From the NCBI GenBank assembly GCA_012960155.1, contig DUBU01000016.1:1-64000 (forward strand): a stretch of DNA of 64,000 bases. The letters run 5' to 3'. The translations under genes were made by a program, and so were the position numbers. The notes under the pieces are model-generated. The model did not search any database and was not told the DNA's origin. It worked only from the letters and a program-made list of their open reading frames with translations. Below, in pieces: positions 45,079 through 53,680 of this stretch; within the stretch, counting starts at the first letter, position 1; each line of letters starts with the position of its first letter. The stretch is from Micavibrio sp. (lineage in GTDB: Bacteria; Pseudomonadota; Alphaproteobacteria; Micavibrionales; Micavibrionaceae).

Positions 45079-45870
45079 TTAATTCGGGCCGCTTTGCATG
45101 CGTTCCAGAATGGCAGGTAAGTGCGTGATATCTGTTTTGTAATCACCCGTGTTGGCATACAGCACCAAATTCATCAGTTGGCGCGTTAGCATTTCACGCT
45201 CGCGCTCTGATACACGGGACTGCTGCGGGTTAATCTCGCGCACAATGCCGATATCTGTAATCACAATATTCGATAAGCTCTCAACACTGTCTTCATCGTT
45301 GCGCTCAACGCAGAACGGGTTGCGTGACATTTCAGATGTGAAGTCTTGCAATAAGAAGAATGTCTTTGTTGCTGTATGATCAAACGGCATCTCGGTAAAC
45401 GGACGTGTATCAAGTTCGCCGATTGTTTCATTCATCAGGCCGCGGCAATCATTGCGCGTGCTGATGTCGCTGGTATCAATTAACAGGATGCCACCATTAT
45501 CAACGTAACGCTGCAATCTGGCGCGCTGGTCTTCGGAGAGATTGTCGCTCTGGTTTGTAACGGTCCAATATATAAACGGGAACAGGTTGAGTTCGTCGCT
45601 CGCCAGATCAAGCGGCACCACAGTCGGGCTGGAGATCGGCACGCGCGTATCCATCATCAAACGGTAAGCCAGCACATCAAGGCCGGCTTCGGTATAGCTG
45701 TCTAATCTGTTGGATCCGCTTTGGATGTATCCGATATGATACCCTTGTGAAAGTTGCACCATCTCTTCGTCACTAAAGCGGTGAGAAGGCGCGTCCTGAG
45801 CGATTGCAGGTGCTGCACTACCCAAGAGCGCAGCAGTCGTGAATGCACTTATTATGCTTCTTATTTTCAT
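45079..45870 (-). CDS. Stand-alone DUF4159 protein with its own signal peptide
   Basis: The protein has 263 residues. ATG at 45870 has an AGGT ribosome binding site and starts a signal peptide (SIISAFTTAALLGSAAPAIA-QD). The mature protein is a DUF4159 domain: GYHIGYIQSGSNRLDSYTEA, then PLDLASDELNLFPFIYWTV, VDNGGILLIDTSD, and a C-terminal segment with MLTRQLMNLVLYANTGDYKT. In most Alphaproteobacteria this domain is the C-terminal half of a protein of about 900 residues whose N-terminal half is BatA-like. Here that N-terminal half is a separate gene (48392–50488) on the other strand. Confidence 0.88.
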   Translation of the reverse strand: MKIRSIISAFTTAALLGSAAPAIAQDAPSHRFSDEEMVQLSQGYHIGYIQSGSNRLDSYTEAGLDVLAYRLMMDTRVPISSPTVVPLDLASDELNLFPFIYWTVTNQSDNLSEDQRARLQRYVDNGGILLIDTSDISTRNDCRGLMNETIGELDTRPFTEMPFDHTATKTFFLLQDFTSEMSRNPFCVERNDEDSVESLSNIVITDIGIVREINPQQSRVSEREREMLTRQLMNLVLYANTGDYKTDITHLPAILERMQSGPN

Positions 45871-46050
45871 AGTTACCTCGTCCTGTATAAACATGACATA
45901 GCACGCAAAAAAATCCTTTGGCAATAAGTAAGGGCTTTTTTTCTGAAAAATCTTTTTTCCCTAACAAAAGGAGTTGACAGTCTACTAGGCAGGCTGTTAG
46001 CCATAACATCTAACTATAAAAATAAATAAAAAACACAAGCAGGTGCAGGG
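45871..46050. promoter_or_regulatory. Divergent promoter region of the DUF4159 and VWA-like genes
   Basis: This 180-base AT-rich region separates two divergent genes of the same cluster. A perfect TTGACA lies at 45974–45979 on the plus strand, but a matching −10 is not clear (TTAGCC at 17 bases, or CATAAC further on). On the minus strand TTGCCA followed 18 bases later by TATGTC could serve the DUF4159 gene. Shared control of both arms is plausible. Confidence 0.4.
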
Positions 46051-48363
46051 ATGAAACTCCGCGATCACTTTATGTCCAAAGTCGCAGCTGGCGCTGTCGC
46101 ATTGACGCTTTCCGCAAGCGGTGCGGTCTTTGCCCAATCCAATGATACAGACGCAAATATTGTTACAAATGACAGTATTACCGAGCGTTTGAACCCTGCA
46201 AATTACGAACTCAATCCGCATCAGTTGGTTAGTCCTGAAATGGATCCTTACATTATTGGCGGCGCTGCAGGTCTGTTCGCATTGCTGTGTTTGGCAGGTG
46301 TAGCACGACGCAAACCCGGAAGCAGCCTTTTGATGCTGGGCGCAGGTGTTGCTGTTACGGGCGCACTATTGAACCCCGGTTTTGTCAGCAAGGAAATGGA
46401 ACGCCGCCCGACAGAGGTTGCGGTTGTGGTTGACCAAAGCGCGAGCCAAAGCTTGGAAACACGCGCTGAAGAAACAAGGGCTGTAACAGAGAATATTCTG
46501 GCGCAGCTGCGCGCTATGGGTATTGATGATGCCAATATCCATCTGGTAATGACGGATGGTGAAAACGAACACATCGAAAATGGCGGCACGAATATCTTTA
46601 CAAGCCTGCCGGCAAGTCTGTCAGCTATGAAACCGCATCAGGCGGGGGCAGTCATTTATATCGGCGATGGTGTAGTCCACGACGTTCCCGAGGAAGCCAG
46701 AGGCATTATGGCACAGGCACCGTTCTATGGTGTGATCTCTGGTTCCGAAGAAGAGCGTGACCGCTATATTGATTTGGAAGACGTGCCGCTCTTCGGTATC
46801 GTTGATGATGAACAAACAATTAGCTTCCGCGTGGTTGATGAAGGTGTGCCAGAAGCGCAGCTGCAACCTGTCGAAGTAACAGTGAAAATTGACGGCGCTG
46901 TGTATCAGCAAATGACAGTTATCCCGAACGAGCTGTCTACCATTACATTTGATATCGAGCATGGCGGCGAGAACATCATCGAAATAGAAACTGCGGAGTT
47001 ACAGGACGAGCTGACAACCCGCAATAACGCAACAGCGTTTTCTATTGAAGGTGTGCGCGAGAACATGAACGTGTTGCTTGCTGTTGGCGAGCCATATGCG
47101 GGCAGTATCTCATGGCGTATGGCGCTGAAATCTGATCCGAATATAGACTTGGTGCATTTCAATATTCTACGCGGTCAGGGCCAAGGGCGCTTCATCCCGG
47201 TTGATGAAATGTCATTGATTGCGTTCCCGACCAGAGAACTATTCGATGAGAAAATCGAAGATTTTGATCTGATCATTCTGGATAGTATCGCCGTCGGTGA
47301 GTATCTAACGCCTTACTACGTTAACCGTATCAGAGAATACGTCATGAATGGCGGCGCACTTTTGGTTGTTGCCGATCAGGAATACTCGACATTCAACGGT
47401 GTAGGCGGTACGGCGCTAGCCGATATTATGCCTGCTGGCAGATCAGAAAATTTGGCGGCAAACGGTACAGCGTTCAGACCTGAAATCAGTGATTACGGTG
47501 AACGTCATCCTGTGACGCGCGGCGTTGCACAGGCACAAGACCCTGAAGAATGGGGACGCTGGTTCCGTGTTGTTGATGTTGGCGATGTAACAGGTGACAT
47601 CCTGATGCAGGCCGCAGACGACAGACCGCTTTTGATTATGGATCACGCAGGCGAAGGTCGCGTGGCATTGATGGCCTCTAATCAGGCATGGCTATGGCAG
47701 CGCGGCATCGAAGGCGGCGGCCCTTACCTTGAATTGCTGCGTAATGTGGCACATTGGACAATGGCTGAACCGGCGCTAGAAGAAGAAGCCTTGCGTCTAC
47801 GCAATGATGATGGAATGCTGGTCGTCGAACGTCAGACAATGGCGGATGTCGATAGCATCGCCCCTGCCGTGATTACTGACCCCGAAGGTCACGAGCGTGA
47901 AGTGCAGTTGGAAGAAGTTATGCCTGGCCTATGGCGCGGGCAAATCGCTGCTGATGAACCTGGTCTTTACGCCGCATCTCACGAAGAGCTTGAAACAGCA
48001 ACAAGCGTAGGGCTGATTAACCCGCTGGAATACCGCAATATGCTCTCGACAGAAGAGACTCTGGCACCTTTGGCTGAGGAAACAGGTGGTTCTGTTATGC
48101 GCTTTAATCGTAATGCGGTGGGTGCTGCTTCCGCGCCGCGTCTTGTCGCTTTGGAAGGTGATCAGGTTGCAGGCGAGGGAGAGATCGGCATTCGCATGAA
48201 TGAAGAGACAATCCTGCGCGGCTCTGAACGACAATCCATCCCGCCTTGGATTTATCTACTGGCGGCCATGGGATTTGTCGCAGGCGCATATGCCGCTGAA
48301 GGACGCCGCAGTCAGGCGAATAAGAAAACGGCAGACGGCGCGCCAAAGCCTGAAGGCCCATAA
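46051..48363 (+). CDS. VWA/glutamine-amidotransferase-like inner-membrane protein of the BatA/DUF4159 cluster
   Basis: The protein has 770 residues. It starts with a signal-peptide-like segment (VALTLSASGAVFA-QS), then two membrane helices (near residues 69–88 and 93–112), then VAVVVDQSASQSLETRAEET, which looks like the first strand of a von Willebrand-type domain with DQSAS in place of the metal site DxSxS. A flavodoxin/GATase-like part follows (FDLIILDSIAVGEYLTPYYV, then EYVMNGGALLVVADQEY). A final helix (IPPWIYLLAAMGFVAGAYAA) precedes a short basic end. Homologues lie beside the DUF4159 protein and MoxR/DUF58 genes in other Alphaproteobacteria. Confidence 0.85.
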   Translation: MKLRDHFMSKVAAGAVALTLSASGAVFAQSNDTDANIVTNDSITERLNPANYELNPHQLVSPEMDPYIIGGAAGLFALLCLAGVARRKPGSSLLMLGAGVAVTGALLNPGFVSKEMERRPTEVAVVVDQSASQSLETRAEETRAVTENILAQLRAMGIDDANIHLVMTDGENEHIENGGTNIFTSLPASLSAMKPHQAGAVIYIGDGVVHDVPEEARGIMAQAPFYGVISGSEEERDRYIDLEDVPLFGIVDDEQTISFRVVDEGVPEAQLQPVEVTVKIDGAVYQQMTVIPNELSTITFDIEHGGENIIEIETAELQDELTTRNNATAFSIEGVRENMNVLLAVGEPYAGSISWRMALKSDPNIDLVHFNILRGQGQGRFIPVDEMSLIAFPTRELFDEKIEDFDLIILDSIAVGEYLTPYYVNRIREYVMNGGALLVVADQEYSTFNGVGGTALADIMPAGRSENLAANGTAFRPEISDYGERHPVTRGVAQAQDPEEWGRWFRVVDVGDVTGDILMQAADDRPLLIMDHAGEGRVALMASNQAWLWQRGIEGGGPYLELLRNVAHWTMAEPALEEEALRLRNDDGMLVVERQTMADVDSIAPAVITDPEGHEREVQLEEVMPGLWRGQIAADEPGLYAASHEELETATSVGLINPLEYRNMLSTEETLAPLAEETGGSVMRFNRNAVGAASAPRLVALEGDQVAGEGEIGIRMNEETILRGSERQSIPPWIYLLAAMGFVAGAYAAEGRRSQANKKTADGAPKPEGP

Positions 48364-48391: not shown

Positions 48392-50488
48392 ATGATAGGC
48401 GATAGATTAAAGACAATATTTACAAGAGCAGCCGCAGCAACAGGCGCTTCGCTTGTGGCAACGCAAGCGATGGCGCAAGACGCTGCAACATCTGTTCTGG
48501 GTATCGGGCTGATGTCGCCATGGATTTTGGCAGGTGCAGCAGTCGCCGTGCCCGCAATCTGGTGGCTATCCCGCAATAACCCGCCATCACCACGTATCGA
48601 GTCATTCCCGTCCATGCGCCTTTTGCTGGGACACCAGACCGAAGAAGTAAAACCAGACACTATGCCTGTATGGCACAAAGTGCTGCGTGCTGCTGCCGCT
48701 ATGGCAGTGATCGCTGGTCTCGCTGGTCCTTTACTAGACCCTGAACAGCCTTTGCCGGGAAGCAGTGACGAACCGCTGATGCTGGTCGTTGATAATGGCT
48801 GGGCGTCTGCTGAGAACTGGCAAGAACGTCAAGAAGCCGTGGCTGTATTGCTCGAGCGCGCCGAACGTGAAGGCCGCCAAATTATTATTTTGCCTGCGGC
48901 TCTGCCGGAGGACGGTCAGGATCTGGAAATGATCGGGCCGGTTGATGCGACTGATGCGCAGCGCATCTTCGGCTCTATGGCAGCACAGCCTTGGCCTGTA
49001 GATCACGAAGATGCTTTAACGCTTCTACAAAATTCCGGCATTGATAACGCTGCCGCGGTCTACTGGATCGGCAACGGTCTGGCAAGTGACGGCACGCTTG
49101 AATTGGCGAGTGCCCTTGATCGTATTGGCGATGTGACTTACATCGACAGCCTCGATGATTACAATCCAAAAGTACTGTCCCAGCCCAATGAATCGGCGCT
49201 GAATATGACAGTCGAGGTTGAGCGCAGTTACGCGGATCGCGCCGAAGAAGTTACGCTGCAGGCAATGGACGATGCAGGTTACGTGCTGGGCGCTGTTGAT
49301 ATTGTGATGGCCGCTGGCGATACAGTGGCAACGGCAGTCTTTGACCTGCCCGAAGAAATTCGCGCACAAGTTACCCGTGTGAATATTGCCGGTGAAAGCA
49401 ACGCAGGTGCGACATTGCTTGTCGATGATAACTGGCGTCAGCGCCCCGTTGGTATTGCCACAAACCCGAATGAACTGGTCACCAGCCCCGTGCTGCGCGA
49501 TACATTCTATCTGGAATCAGCGATGGCGCCTTATGCCAGATTACATAGCGGTAATATCGATGAACTACTCAGCAGACCGCTAGCCGTAGCCATGGTGCCT
49601 GATGATACTGATTTATCCGAGCGCGATATGGCGCGTCTTGCCCAATGGGTTGAAGACGGCGGTATGCTCGTCCGTTTTGCGGGCCCTGATCTGGCGGAAA
49701 GTAGCGGGGATGAACTGCTGCCGGTTGATCTGATGTATGGTAACCGCACGCTGGGTGGCTCCATGTCATGGAGCGAGCCTTTAAGTATTGCGACATTTGA
49801 CCGTGAATCACCGTTTTATGGCGTGGATATCGCAGATGATATCGAGGTTACAAGACAGGTTGTCGCTCGTCCTGACGGAAACTTGCGTGAACGCACATGG
49901 GCGTCACTATCCGATGGTACTCCATTGGTGACTGCGGAGCAGCGTGGTGAAGGCCATATTGTACTGTTCCATGTGTCATCAAACGCAAAACATCATTGGT
50001 CGAATTTGCCGCTTACAGGCACATTCGTGAACATGTTGCGTCGTGTAGTGGATTACAGCAGCGGCGTAACAGGCGTTACAGAGGGCTTTGAAAGCTTGGC
50101 GCCTTGGCAAACCCTTGACGGTCAAGGTCGTCTGGGCACACCATCAGCCGCAGCGGAGCCTATTGATGCTGCGAAGATTGAGGCTGGCGCAATTGGTCCG
50201 CGCACACCGCCGGGTTTCTATGGCGATGAAACAACACGCCTTGCGTATAATTTGTCTGATGCCGAACTGTCCTTTAGTCCGTTGCCATCAGCAGGAGCGA
50301 TGGGCGTGACCCGCGAAACTCTGCAAACAGAAGGCAGTAATAACCTGACAGGATATTTGTTACTGGCTGGCTTGTTGGCACTGGGTGTGGATCAAGGACT
50401 GCGTGCCTTCCAAAATGGTGGACGTCGCAGACGATCAGGATCAGAGTCTAATAACAAAAAGCCCGCGCCGACACCGGCAGGCATATAA
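48392..50488 (+). CDS. BatA-type membrane protein lacking its DUF4159 domain
   Basis: The protein has 698 residues, starting at ATG 48392 with a GCAGGGAAG ribosome binding site. An in-frame ATG at 48200 lies inside the previous gene. After a signal-like stretch (ATGASLVATQAMA-QD) comes the BatA N-terminal signature MSPWILAGAAVAVPAIWWLS and IESFPSMRLLLG, then a second helix. A GATase-like middle part (AQWVEDGGMLVRFAGPDLAE) follows, and a last helix (LTGYLLLAGLLALGVDQGLR) near residue 665. It then ends with a basic tail. In relatives a DUF4159 domain follows that last helix. Confidence 0.85.
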   Translation: MIGDRLKTIFTRAAAATGASLVATQAMAQDAATSVLGIGLMSPWILAGAAVAVPAIWWLSRNNPPSPRIESFPSMRLLLGHQTEEVKPDTMPVWHKVLRAAAAMAVIAGLAGPLLDPEQPLPGSSDEPLMLVVDNGWASAENWQERQEAVAVLLERAEREGRQIIILPAALPEDGQDLEMIGPVDATDAQRIFGSMAAQPWPVDHEDALTLLQNSGIDNAAAVYWIGNGLASDGTLELASALDRIGDVTYIDSLDDYNPKVLSQPNESALNMTVEVERSYADRAEEVTLQAMDDAGYVLGAVDIVMAAGDTVATAVFDLPEEIRAQVTRVNIAGESNAGATLLVDDNWRQRPVGIATNPNELVTSPVLRDTFYLESAMAPYARLHSGNIDELLSRPLAVAMVPDDTDLSERDMARLAQWVEDGGMLVRFAGPDLAESSGDELLPVDLMYGNRTLGGSMSWSEPLSIATFDRESPFYGVDIADDIEVTRQVVARPDGNLRERTWASLSDGTPLVTAEQRGEGHIVLFHVSSNAKHHWSNLPLTGTFVNMLRRVVDYSSGVTGVTEGFESLAPWQTLDGQGRLGTPSAAAEPIDAAKIEAGAIGPRTPPGFYGDETTRLAYNLSDAELSFSPLPSAGAMGVTRETLQTEGSNNLTGYLLLAGLLALGVDQGLRAFQNGGRRRRSGSESNNKKPAPTPAGI

Positions 50489-50506: not shown

Positions 50507-52477
50507 ATGGTTATGAGAGCACGTGAAATAGGAAAAGGTCTGGCAGCAGCAGCATTAAGTCTGTCACTGGCATTTCAGGCAGCAGCACAGGATGCACCAA
50601 ACGCACCGGGCTTTACCGCTGAGCGTCATTTTGAAATTCCTGATTATCACGAACACCCGCTGGCAGGCAGTGATGTTGAAATCATCATTGGCGTAGAAGA
50701 TGACGCGGGCCGTACAGCCAGCACAGGCAGCGTTAGAACAACTATTCCGGCCTATAATTTTACAAACCCTATTGCGCGCATTATGGCTGCGCAGCGCCCG
50801 ACTGTTGCGTTTGATACACAAGAGTCACTGCGTGTGGCTTACGAAATCGACCGCATCATTCAGGACTTCGAAGACCAAATTCCGACGGTGCCGATTTACG
50901 TGGCGCTGCATAATATCCGTGATGGTTTCCTGCACGCTGAAACAGTGGGCGATTACAACCGCGCCATCAGCTTGATGTGGTACACCATGATCGAGCTCGA
51001 GCGCGAAGTCCCGAGCCCTGCCGAGCGCCGTCTGCGTGAAGCACAGCGTGCCCTTGAGGAAGCGTTGCAAAATGGTGCCAGTGATGAAGAGCTGCGCGAG
51101 CGTATGGAAGAACTGCGTCAGGCCATGGAAGAGCGTATGCAGGAAATGGCCGAGCAGAACGCACAAGATCAGGAAAACGGCTTGAGCCCAGAAGAGCAGC
51201 AGCAGCTTGAAGAAATGCGCGAGCGTTTGGCCGAGCTGATGGAAGAACTGCAACAGCAACTGGCGCAGGACGCTGCCCAGCAAATGCTGAACCAGTCCCA
51301 ACAGATGCAGCAACAGCAGCAGCAAATGACGCCGCAGCAGATGATGCAGATGATGGAACAGATGATGCAGAACATCGAGAACATCAAAAAGATGATGCAG
51401 ATGCAGCGCGATATGGATCAGCTGATCGAAGACCAGCGCCAGCTGCGCGAAGATACATTTGATCAGCAGCAACAGCAGCCGCAGATCGACCCTGAAATGT
51501 TCGAAGAGTTCATGCAGAACCTCGAAGACGAAATGGAACGCCAGCAGGATATCGAAGAGCAGGAAGGCACAACTGAGGGCGCCGAGAATGCCGATACATT
51601 ACAGCAGCATCGTGATCGCATCGACGAATTCCAGCAGGAAGATAGCCAGCGCGAACAAAACGGCGAGGCCATGCCGGGCGATGAAGCGCAAGAGCGTATG
51701 CGTGAATTACAGGATATGACCCGTGATTTGCAGGAAATGCAGCGCCAAGATCAGCAGCCAGGTCAGGATCAACAAGGCCAAGATCAGCAGCCCGGTCAAC
51801 AAGGACAGCAGGGCCAGCAAGGTCAACAAGGTGGTCAGCAGCAGCAACAGCAAACACCGGGCGAGCAGCTACAGCAGCAGCTTGATGAATTGCAGCGCCA
51901 GCTCGATGGTGAAATGCAGCAGCAGAACGACGCCTTAAGACAGCGCCAGCAGGAGTTGCAGCAGCGACTGGATGAACTGCAGCAGCAAATGGACGATATG
52001 GGCGGCGACTCAAGCCAGATGGGCGAGGCGCAGAACCATATGGACGGTGCACAAGGCCAGTTGCAACAAGGCCAAGGCCAAGGCGCTATGCAGAGCATGG
52101 ATGATGCTATCCGCGCGCTGGAGCAAGCTCAGCAGCAAATGCAGCAGCAGATGCAACAAATGCAGCAAGGTCAGCAACCAGGGCAACAGCAAGGCCAGCA
52201 ACAAGGTAACGGCATGCCGGGTCAAGGTTCGCCGCAAGGCAGCCAGGACATCATGGAAGGCCAGTCAGATCCGCTGGGTGAAATGCAGCGTGATAACGGC
52301 GCCCATAACCCGAATATGGGACAGGCGCCAACAGAAGCGGACCGTAACGTTGTGCGTGAATTGCAGGACGAAATCCGTGAACGCCTGCAAGATCCTGATC
52401 TTGATCCTGTGGAGCGCGAATATCTGGAGCGTCTGGAGCAAGGCGCTGCGGGACAGCCGCGGCCACCGGGACCATAA
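50507..52477 (+). CDS. C-terminal half of a DUF4175/TIGR02302 protein, with its own signal peptide
   Basis: The protein has 656 residues. A Sec signal peptide (AAAALSLSLAFQAAA-QD) is followed directly by the part that in single-chain TIGR02302 proteins begins midway: FEIPDYHEHPLAGSDVEIII, GVEDDAGRTASTGSVRTTI, the NFTNPIARIMAAQRPTVAFD helix, then AERRLREAQRALEEALQNGA and a long helical Glu/Gln/Met-rich region. The end matches the family: SDPLGEMQRD…VVRELQDEIRERLQDPDLDP with REYLERLEQ. No membrane helix remains after the signal peptide, so it is probably periplasmic. The N-terminal half is encoded at 52556–53680 on the minus strand. Confidence 0.87.
   Translation: MVMRAREIGKGLAAAALSLSLAFQAAAQDAPNAPGFTAERHFEIPDYHEHPLAGSDVEIIIGVEDDAGRTASTGSVRTTIPAYNFTNPIARIMAAQRPTVAFDTQESLRVAYEIDRIIQDFEDQIPTVPIYVALHNIRDGFLHAETVGDYNRAISLMWYTMIELEREVPSPAERRLREAQRALEEALQNGASDEELRERMEELRQAMEERMQEMAEQNAQDQENGLSPEEQQQLEEMRERLAELMEELQQQLAQDAAQQMLNQSQQMQQQQQQMTPQQMMQMMEQMMQNIENIKKMMQMQRDMDQLIEDQRQLREDTFDQQQQQPQIDPEMFEEFMQNLEDEMERQQDIEEQEGTTEGAENADTLQQHRDRIDEFQQEDSQREQNGEAMPGDEAQERMRELQDMTRDLQEMQRQDQQPGQDQQGQDQQPGQQGQQGQQGQQGGQQQQQQTPGEQLQQQLDELQRQLDGEMQQQNDALRQRQQELQQRLDELQQQMDDMGGDSSQMGEAQNHMDGAQGQLQQGQGQGAMQSMDDAIRALEQAQQQMQQQMQQMQQGQQPGQQQGQQQGNGMPGQGSPQGSQDIMEGQSDPLGEMQRDNGAHNPNMGQAPTEADRNVVRELQDEIRERLQDPDLDPVEREYLERLEQGAAGQPRPPGP
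51180..52260 (+). repeat. Glutamine-rich low-complexity coding region
   Basis: Within the preceding gene, CAG/CAA codons occur in long runs. One block is QQQQQMTPQQMMQMMEQMMQ, a second is made of short PGQDQQ and GQQGQQ units (about 51755–51860), and a third is around 52130–52215 (QQMQQQMQQMQQGQQPGQQ-type). The helical Q/M/E blocks could form coiled coils, while the PGQ blocks are likely flexible linkers. Copy number may vary between strains. Confidence 0.85.
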
Positions 52478-52501
52478 GTCTAATTAAAGAATATAAAAAT
52501 T

Positions 52502-52532
52502 AAAGGCCGCTGAAATCAAAGCGGCCTTTTTT
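52502..52532. terminator. Bidirectional terminator between the two DUF4175 half-genes
   Basis: AAAGGCCGC (52502–52510) pairs with GCGGCCTTT (52521–52529) around a 10-base loop, and a T6 run follows on the plus strand. On the minus strand the stem is followed by TTTAATTTTT. It serves both convergent genes. Confidence 0.88.
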
Positions 52533-52555
52533 GTATTCTATGAAACTATGGAAGC

Positions 52556-53680
52556 TTAGCGCAGACCCAGATCAATGCGCGGCTCGCGATACTGCGGCAG
52601 GGGCGTTGCATCCGCACCAGCCAAAGGCGCTGTATCAACCACCGCACTACCTTCAGTAATGTCCGCGCCAAAATCATCGGTAATCAAAACCTGATAACGC
52701 GGCGCTGCGCCTTCACGAACGGGCAGGGTATTCAGCTCCACAGTCGGTGCCATATCCTGCGTAACATTAAACGCCCATGACAGTCCTTCCCAACGGCCGC
52801 GGGAAATGTCGATGCGTGTATCTTCGGTCAGCGTGATTGTAAATTCGCGCGTATTGCCACGATTGCGGACTTCCATCGCCATATCGGACTCTGCGCCCTC
52901 AGAAATCGCGTGCAGCTCTGTTTTGTCGTCAAACAGCTGTACCGTAAGGGTGCTGCCTTCGATGATGTCCACGGGTTCACGCGCGGCAAACTGGGCACCG
53001 TTCTCGCTGTCATGCAGAACGATCGGCGCATATTCACCAGTGTAACCCGGCTGTGTCACCCATGCATTCATGCGGGACGCAGGCGCAGGCGGTACGTTAA
53101 GACTCATGTCGAAACTCGCCATGAAGTTCTCTTCGTAATGTCCGTATCCTGTGTAAGCACCGATAGAGGTGGCCAAGGCGGAAGCCAGCAAAATAGGCGC
53201 TGCAAATTTGCGCACGGTCTCGCTCTGGCGGTAAGGCTCAGCCACCAAACGCGGTACTTCGCGCATCATGTCCTGCATATGCAAACGCCATACGGGGCTG
53301 TCATTCTGGCCCTTCATGTCGCGATACATATTTTCGGCAACTTGGTGCTTGGTCGGGGACGCGTGATCAATGCGACGCACCGCATCCATCGTGCTTGGCA
53401 GTTTCGTTGTCAGAAGGCGTAAGCCTGTAACCGCCGTCGCCGCAGCAAATAAAATCAAAGTCGCGGCTTTACCTGTCGGGGGCAAGGATGCCAGCGCGCC
53501 GCTCAGCGTCGCACCTGCAAACAGACCGGCAACGCCGATCACGGGCAGGGCACGCGGCACAATACGCTCGGCCATCATGCGCCAGTACTGCGTACTCACC
53601 AGCTTGTTAAAGCCCATTGTCAGTGAATTTTTCTCTTTTTCCGGATGCGGCATACCCGCAGATGTCGATGCGTCGACCAT
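52556..53680 (-). CDS. N-terminal (membrane) half of a DUF4175/TIGR02302 protein
   Basis: The protein has 374 residues. Two membrane helices lie near residues 43–62 and 70–87. Then comes the family segment LPSTMDAVRRIDHASPTKHQ, a cytoplasmic helical part (PVWRLHMQDMMREVPRLVAE), and a third helix (APILLASALATSIGAYTGY, about residues 164–182). The periplasmic part has Ig-like strands and ends APTVELNTLPVREGAAPRYQ then VLITDDFGADI and PLPQYREPRIDLGLR. In single-chain relatives the next residues would be the start of the protein at 50507. The break thus falls inside a β-domain linker. Confidence 0.87.
   Translation of the reverse strand: MVDASTSAGMPHPEKEKNSLTMGFNKLVSTQYWRMMAERIVPRALPVIGVAGLFAGATLSGALASLPPTGKAATLILFAAATAVTGLRLLTTKLPSTMDAVRRIDHASPTKHQVAENMYRDMKGQNDSPVWRLHMQDMMREVPRLVAEPYRQSETVRKFAAPILLASALATSIGAYTGYGHYEENFMASFDMSLNVPPAPASRMNAWVTQPGYTGEYAPIVLHDSENGAQFAAREPVDIIEGSTLTVQLFDDKTELHAISEGAESDMAMEVRNRGNTREFTITLTEDTRIDISRGRWEGLSWAFNVTQDMAPTVELNTLPVREGAAPRYQVLITDDFGADITEGSAVVDTAPLAGADATPLPQYREPRIDLGLR

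Follow-up and report, generated by a model that had tools for sequence, protein, structure and literature searches.

The window, by which is meant the whole stretch of 64,000 nucleotides of Micavibrio sp. DNA that was analysed (contig DUBU01000016.1), contains two convergent genes on opposite strands, both confirmed as open reading frames, whose products correspond to the two halves of a DUF4175 protein. The features of this locus are as follows.

50507-52477, plus strand: DUF4175 C-half, 656 aa (PF13779 columns 356-673, E 1.1e-68; second stretch at columns 551-821), comprising a signal peptide, the latter half of Ig-like domain 2, a helical segment and an extended Gln/Met-rich, coiled-coil-like tail
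50507-50590, plus strand: C-half signal peptide (about residues 1-28), read from the sequence
50630-50752, plus strand: C-half share of Ig-like domain 2 (about residues 42-82), strands E-G, with the HPLAG motif
52502-52529, no strand assigned: bidirectional terminator-like hairpin between the two genes
52556-53680, minus strand: DUF4175 N-half, 374 aa (PF13779 columns 5-343, E 7.3e-42; AlphaFold model), with membrane helices, Ig-like domain 1 and the first half of Ig-like domain 2
52559-52756, minus strand: N-half share of Ig-like domain 2 (about residues 309-374), strands A-D, with the DDFG motif

Complementary halves of one family profile

A preliminary description of this DNA had assigned the minus-strand product to the N-terminal half and the plus-strand product to the C-terminal half of DUF4175, with little or no overlap, and had proposed an alignment of both to the family profiles. 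This assignment is borne out. Residues 27-373 of the N-half align to PF13779 positions 5-343 and residues 44-367 of the C-half to positions 356-673, with a further stretch reaching position 821 in the genome search, leaving a gap of about 12 columns and zero overlap. The two products score 232.6 and 143.8 bits, well past the gathering cut-off of 27.3 bits, and the profile is never spanned by a single chain at this locus, as positions 356-821 reside in one product and 5-343 in the other. The same pattern was obtained with TIGR02302 (columns 375-699 for the C-half and 5-360 for the N-half); the respective scores of 157.2 and 93.5 bits fall below the curated cut-off of 394.3 bits and neither half is a TIGR02302 equivalog. 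HMM mapping of the halves revealed neither overlapping parts nor remnants of the missing half. Together with a cut point that is common to all pairs (see below), this complementary coverage is what a two-chain protein encoded by split genes should display.

The shared terminator that had been suggested for the 78-base intergenic gap was recovered as a hairpin with a 10-pair stem, which scores as a terminator on either strand. The C-half carries its own signal peptide, as had also been proposed: its N-terminus (MVMRAREIGKGLAAAALSLSLAFQAAAQ), judged by eye, is of the classical type with a positive start, a hydrophobic core and an AxA-type end, and similar starts are found in other C-halves. Two segments of the N-half are strongly hydrophobic, and a further helix coincides in position with the third membrane helix of the fused protein.

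Recurrence and history of the split

A survey of 142 genomes of the order (Micavibrio-like Alphaproteobacteria; the named relatives are Micavibrio and other alphaproteobacterial metagenome-assembled genomes) identified a stand-alone N-half in nine of them: the window genome G000 and G002, G023, G035, G061, G068, G073, G074 and G109. A profile built for the split N-halves separates these proteins (275-554 bits) from the single-chain proteins of the order (161 bits at most). All nine genomes, which represent seven genera and two families, also encode a stand-alone C-half with a signal-peptide-like start, and the cut falls at the same point in every pair. In seven pairs the genes converge and are separated by 11-123 bases, while in G073 and G074 the halves are located on one strand with an oppositely transcribed AAA-family gene in between. 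Outside the window genome, the N-half was thus found in eight genomes and the C-half in ten. This repetition in eight other genomes of the order excludes chance and misassembly; the division of this known protein is genuine, natural and conserved, and it runs through a predicted domain.

Across the class, in a sample of 385 other genomes, nearly all of the matches listed lie in long single-chain frames and no clear stand-alone N-half was found among them. The few short matches inspected trace to the end of a contig in G211, to what looks like a change of frame in G486 and, in G499, to a split of independent origin (discussed below). Two DUF4175 frames contain one in-frame TAG (G530:C1:6691890-6694850 and G535:C40:6912-9884). 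No description of a split DUF4175 was found in the open-access literature searched.

The window genome also encodes a single-chain DUF4175 of 849 aa (G000:C39:11415-13913; profile 2-825, E 3.6e-173), which adjoins lysA and is situated near ftsE/ftsX. This neighborhood is the usual site of DUF4175 genes in Alphaproteobacteria and was also observed in G129, G234 and G367. Consequently, the split pair is a second copy, and all nine genomes with a split pair carry a single-chain DUF4175 as well. The preliminary description had named a full-length gene elsewhere in the genome as an argument against its proposal. The split itself stands despite this copy, whereas the idea of the divided protein as the only DUF4175 of the genome had to be abandoned. 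The single-chain protein of G035 (L038:5508-9107) has a length of 1199 aa; an insert of about 245 residues, which separates profile parts 263 and 315, falls just ahead of the cut site of the split form.

Phylogenetic trees were calculated separately for the N-region and for the first part of the C-region, each with about 100 single-chain proteins. In these trees, which are unrooted and contain long branches, the split N-halves form one clade (support 100/93), as do the split C-halves (support 100/98). Both clades are placed outside the single-chain clade of the order and share the same single-chain neighbors, G329 and G499. A recent duplication of the local, lysA-linked copy is unsupported, as the pair belongs to a separate clade. 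The simplest and best-fitting reading of the trees is one old split, after which both pieces would have been inherited together. G035, which belongs to a different family, is nested within the split clade, suggesting a transfer of the gene set. Such a transfer, and the placement of the split clade close to other alphaproteobacterial families rather than within the single-chain clade of the order, would also agree with a divided ancestral state, in which single chains arose by fusion and the second set was acquired horizontally from an unsampled lineage whose genes were always separate. We regard this history as quite improbable, given the lack of a clear stand-alone N-half among the matches listed for the 385 other genomes of the class and given that the trees are unrooted and long-branched.

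With regard to the facing order of the genes, an inversion had been considered a requirement. This claim does not hold, since an inverted duplication in convergent orientation, with opposite parts lost afterwards, can yield the same order, and since the halves of G073 and G074 are encoded on the same strand.

Two genomes contain a C-half only. In G064, which is 87% complete, the gene lies at a contig edge and the N-half was not detected. In G001, the HPLAG segment of the C-half (L037:5763-8810) is readable only in another frame and no N-half was found at the syntenic spot, indicating that this genome has lost the partner and that the decayed portion of its C-half is the interface part. This visible decay, the redundancy with a full-length copy and the long branches of the halves in the window genome are features that a decaying pseudogene, derived from a broken duplicate, or an assembly artefact might also exhibit. 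Such an origin is nevertheless highly improbable for the pair: the same cut is present in nine genomes with open frames, and signal peptides were gained. In addition, between G073 and G074 the dN/dS of the N-half (202 codons) is 0.070 and that of the C-half 0.067, similar to the ratios of the adjacent BatA, DUF58 and DUF4159 genes. Judged by these ratios, which contradict decay and led to the rejection of a pseudogene, both halves are under purifying selection.

Position of the cut within an Ig-like domain

The position of the cut was analysed with an AlphaFold2 model of L079, a single-chain relative from the same genus (60 sequences, mean pLDDT 83). In this model, membrane helices are followed by two Ig/FN3-like domains (residues about 200-294 and 297-404), a helical region and finally an extended helical tail; the Foldseek matches of this fused model are tandem Ig/FN3 domains. 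In fused numbering, HMM mapping places the ends of the N-halves at residues 328-357 and the starts of the C-halves at residues 346-366, so that the cut lies within the second Ig-like domain. For the pair of the window, C-half residue 42 corresponds to fused residue 366, and the N-half extends up to fused residue 336; its share of domain 2 was placed by HMM mapping together with a MAFFT alignment of the tails. According to the model, in which local pLDDT around the cut is mostly 87-94, about four strands of predicted domain 2 are assigned to the N-half (300-303, 319-322, 327-336 and about 349-354) and three to the C-half, on whose side the fused model has strand segments at 363-365, 380-389, 394-396 and 400-403. 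The motifs of the domain are kept on both sides, as DD(Y/F)G in most N-halves and as HP(x)LAG in the C-halves.

When the N-half of the window was modelled alone, domain 1 was predicted with confidence and the domain-2 remnant reached a pLDDT of 42-69, compared to about 90 in the fused model; the lone model is based on a shallow alignment at 20% identity, which may account for part of this decrease. With this qualification, the low values fit the need for a partner. A sequence search of the PDB with the N-half profile returned no match, and a search with the first 331 residues of the C-half returned only a coiled-coil or compositional match to GldL/PorL.

A cut through the middle of a predicted domain implies that the pieces probably have to rejoin outside the inner membrane. 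This supports the earlier expectation that the two products would meet in the periplasm, where we infer that they form a heterodimer in which Ig-like domain 2 is restored. Alternatively, the C-half strands could dock on another Ig-like partner. More generally, the halves might have become independent and no longer associate, the N-half acting as a membrane protein and the C-half as a soluble, periplasmic coiled-coil protein, each with separate partners such as BatA or the GATase-like protein of the gene set described below. The non-adjacent halves of G073 and G074 with their intervening AAA gene, the C-halves of G001 and G064, for which no N-half was detected, and the co-transcription of the C-half, but not of the N-half, with BatA/DUF58 are in agreement with such independence. 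It would, however, leave each piece with an unfinished beta-sandwich, and it is at odds with the retention of domain-2 motifs in both pieces and with the joint inheritance of the N- and C-clades. The partnerless C-half of G001, moreover, is the one whose half-domain is out of frame. Overall, independent halves appear unlikely.

A second MoxR-DUF58-BatA-DUF4159 gene set and the proposed assembly

The split genes are the last members of a second MoxR-DUF58-BatA-DUF4159 gene set. This context, in which BatA/DUF4159 is likewise divided, was absent from the preliminary description. The following members precede the pair in the window.

45079-45924, minus strand: stand-alone DUF4159 protein with signal peptide, 281 aa (PF13709, E 1.5e-23), divergent from the operon
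46051-48363, plus strand: membrane protein with a weak GATase1-like/DUF7408 match, 770 aa, operon member
48392-50488, plus strand: BatA-like membrane protein without DUF4159 (PF07584, E 1.2e-10); the frame opens at 48200 and the start is probably at 48392

The order of the set is moxR, DUF4159 (with signal peptide, on the opposite strand), GATase-like, BatA, DUF58 and the DUF4175 C-half, with the N-half facing. G068 has the complete set, and G023, G035, G073, G074 and G109 have nearly all of it. In G002 the pair has stayed adjacent and convergent even though the stand-alone DUF4159 gene is located on another contig and the pair is not flanked by the remaining operon genes. The window has lost DUF58 and moxR from this place. 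Elsewhere in the same genome, a lone DUF58 gene is present near ribosomal protein genes (G000:C3:123120-123818) and a second moxR beside the canonical moxR (L068:11167-12246); these are possibly the missing members.

The GATase-like protein is 34% identical to the product of a 693-aa gene of the canonical operon (G000:C1), in which BatA and DUF4159 form one chain of 907 aa. The BatA-like protein of the window spans residues 8-637 of this fusion and its DUF4159 protein residues 623-905. In general, the BatA proteins of the second set reach fusion residues 637-662 and the separate DUF4159 proteins extend from about 662 to 907, so that 662-905 is the region absent from the former. Of the 11 genomes that carry pieces of the split DUF4175, 10 also have a stand-alone DUF4159 gene, and the remaining one (G061) is truncated at the end of a contig; three further genomes have such a gene as well. 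As both DUF4175 and BatA/DUF4159 are divided, two long membrane proteins per set are present as an anchor and an exported piece encoded on opposite strands.

Taken together, these observations make it probable that the pair is a second DUF4175 copy which was divided once, either by an old split within the Micavibrio-like Alphaproteobacteria or before its acquisition, that it was kept as part of an accessory MoxR-DUF58-BatA-DUF4159 set, and that its chains are rejoined via domain 2. In this model, the N-half would insert into the inner membrane and expose Ig-like domain 1 and about four strands of domain 2 to the periplasm. The C-half would be exported separately via its signal peptide and contribute the remaining strands together with the long Gln-rich coiled tail. 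Completion of domain 2 would then join both chains into one membrane-anchored periplasmic complex, which might perform the task of the single-chain protein as a MoxR/Bat component of the cell envelope. Physical association and an envelope function are the properties expected of the pair, which would form that arm of an accessory MoxR/Bat complex which extends into the periplasm. A further, more tentative suggestion, for which we see somewhat less than an even chance, is that the split domain is the joint through which a membrane anchor has to connect to a coiled-coil protein exported on its own, within a secreted-type MoxR/Bat envelope system, in which DUF4175 and BatA/DUF4159 are both made as anchor and exported piece from opposite strands, perhaps for separate control of each part.

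A link of single-chain TIGR02302 genes to the envelope is indicated by two sources: in Rhodobacter sphaeroides, CenR directly targets one such gene (PMC9275681), and a title cited in PMC6842974 describes an Azorhizobium deletion mutant that overproduces exopolysaccharide and is defective in plant infection. DUF4175 is a widespread alphaproteobacterial envelope protein, and the natural cut reveals where it is separable. In addition, the split pair ties the family genetically to the MoxR/DUF58/Bat system, which provides a testable list of partners for both. If the proposed assembly is correct, this beta-sandwich cut, which has persisted in at least seven genera, would offer a clear example from nature of a membrane protein and an exported protein completing a shared domain.

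Concatenated, the halves show the same domain order, Ig-like domains and Gln-rich tail as the single-chain DUF4175/TIGR02302 proteins of the lysA locus (G000:C39, L079), which are, however, made as one chain of 850 aa without an internal signal peptide, are encoded near ftsE/ftsX and belong to a different clade. The canonical alphaproteobacterial MoxR-DUF58-BatA/DUF4159-GATase-like operon (G000:C1, L068) consists of the same gene families as the second set, which differs by its separate, secreted DUF4159 on the opposite strand and by the two DUF4175 halves. A DUF4175 in two genes also exists in G499 (L188:6814-9896; columns 2-535 and 535-825), where the C-terminal piece has its own signal peptide, and in its relatives G524, G527, G533 and G538. 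This split is independent, as it lies at column 535 in adjacent, same-strand genes at the lysA locus and sibling species of the genus are unsplit. Gene fission with reassembly of the subunits is known in general, for example from split RNA polymerase subunits, where one ancestral chain is made as two polypeptides as in the present case. In contrast to these examples, the two DUF4175 genes face each other, the second piece has gained an export signal and the cut is located within a domain.
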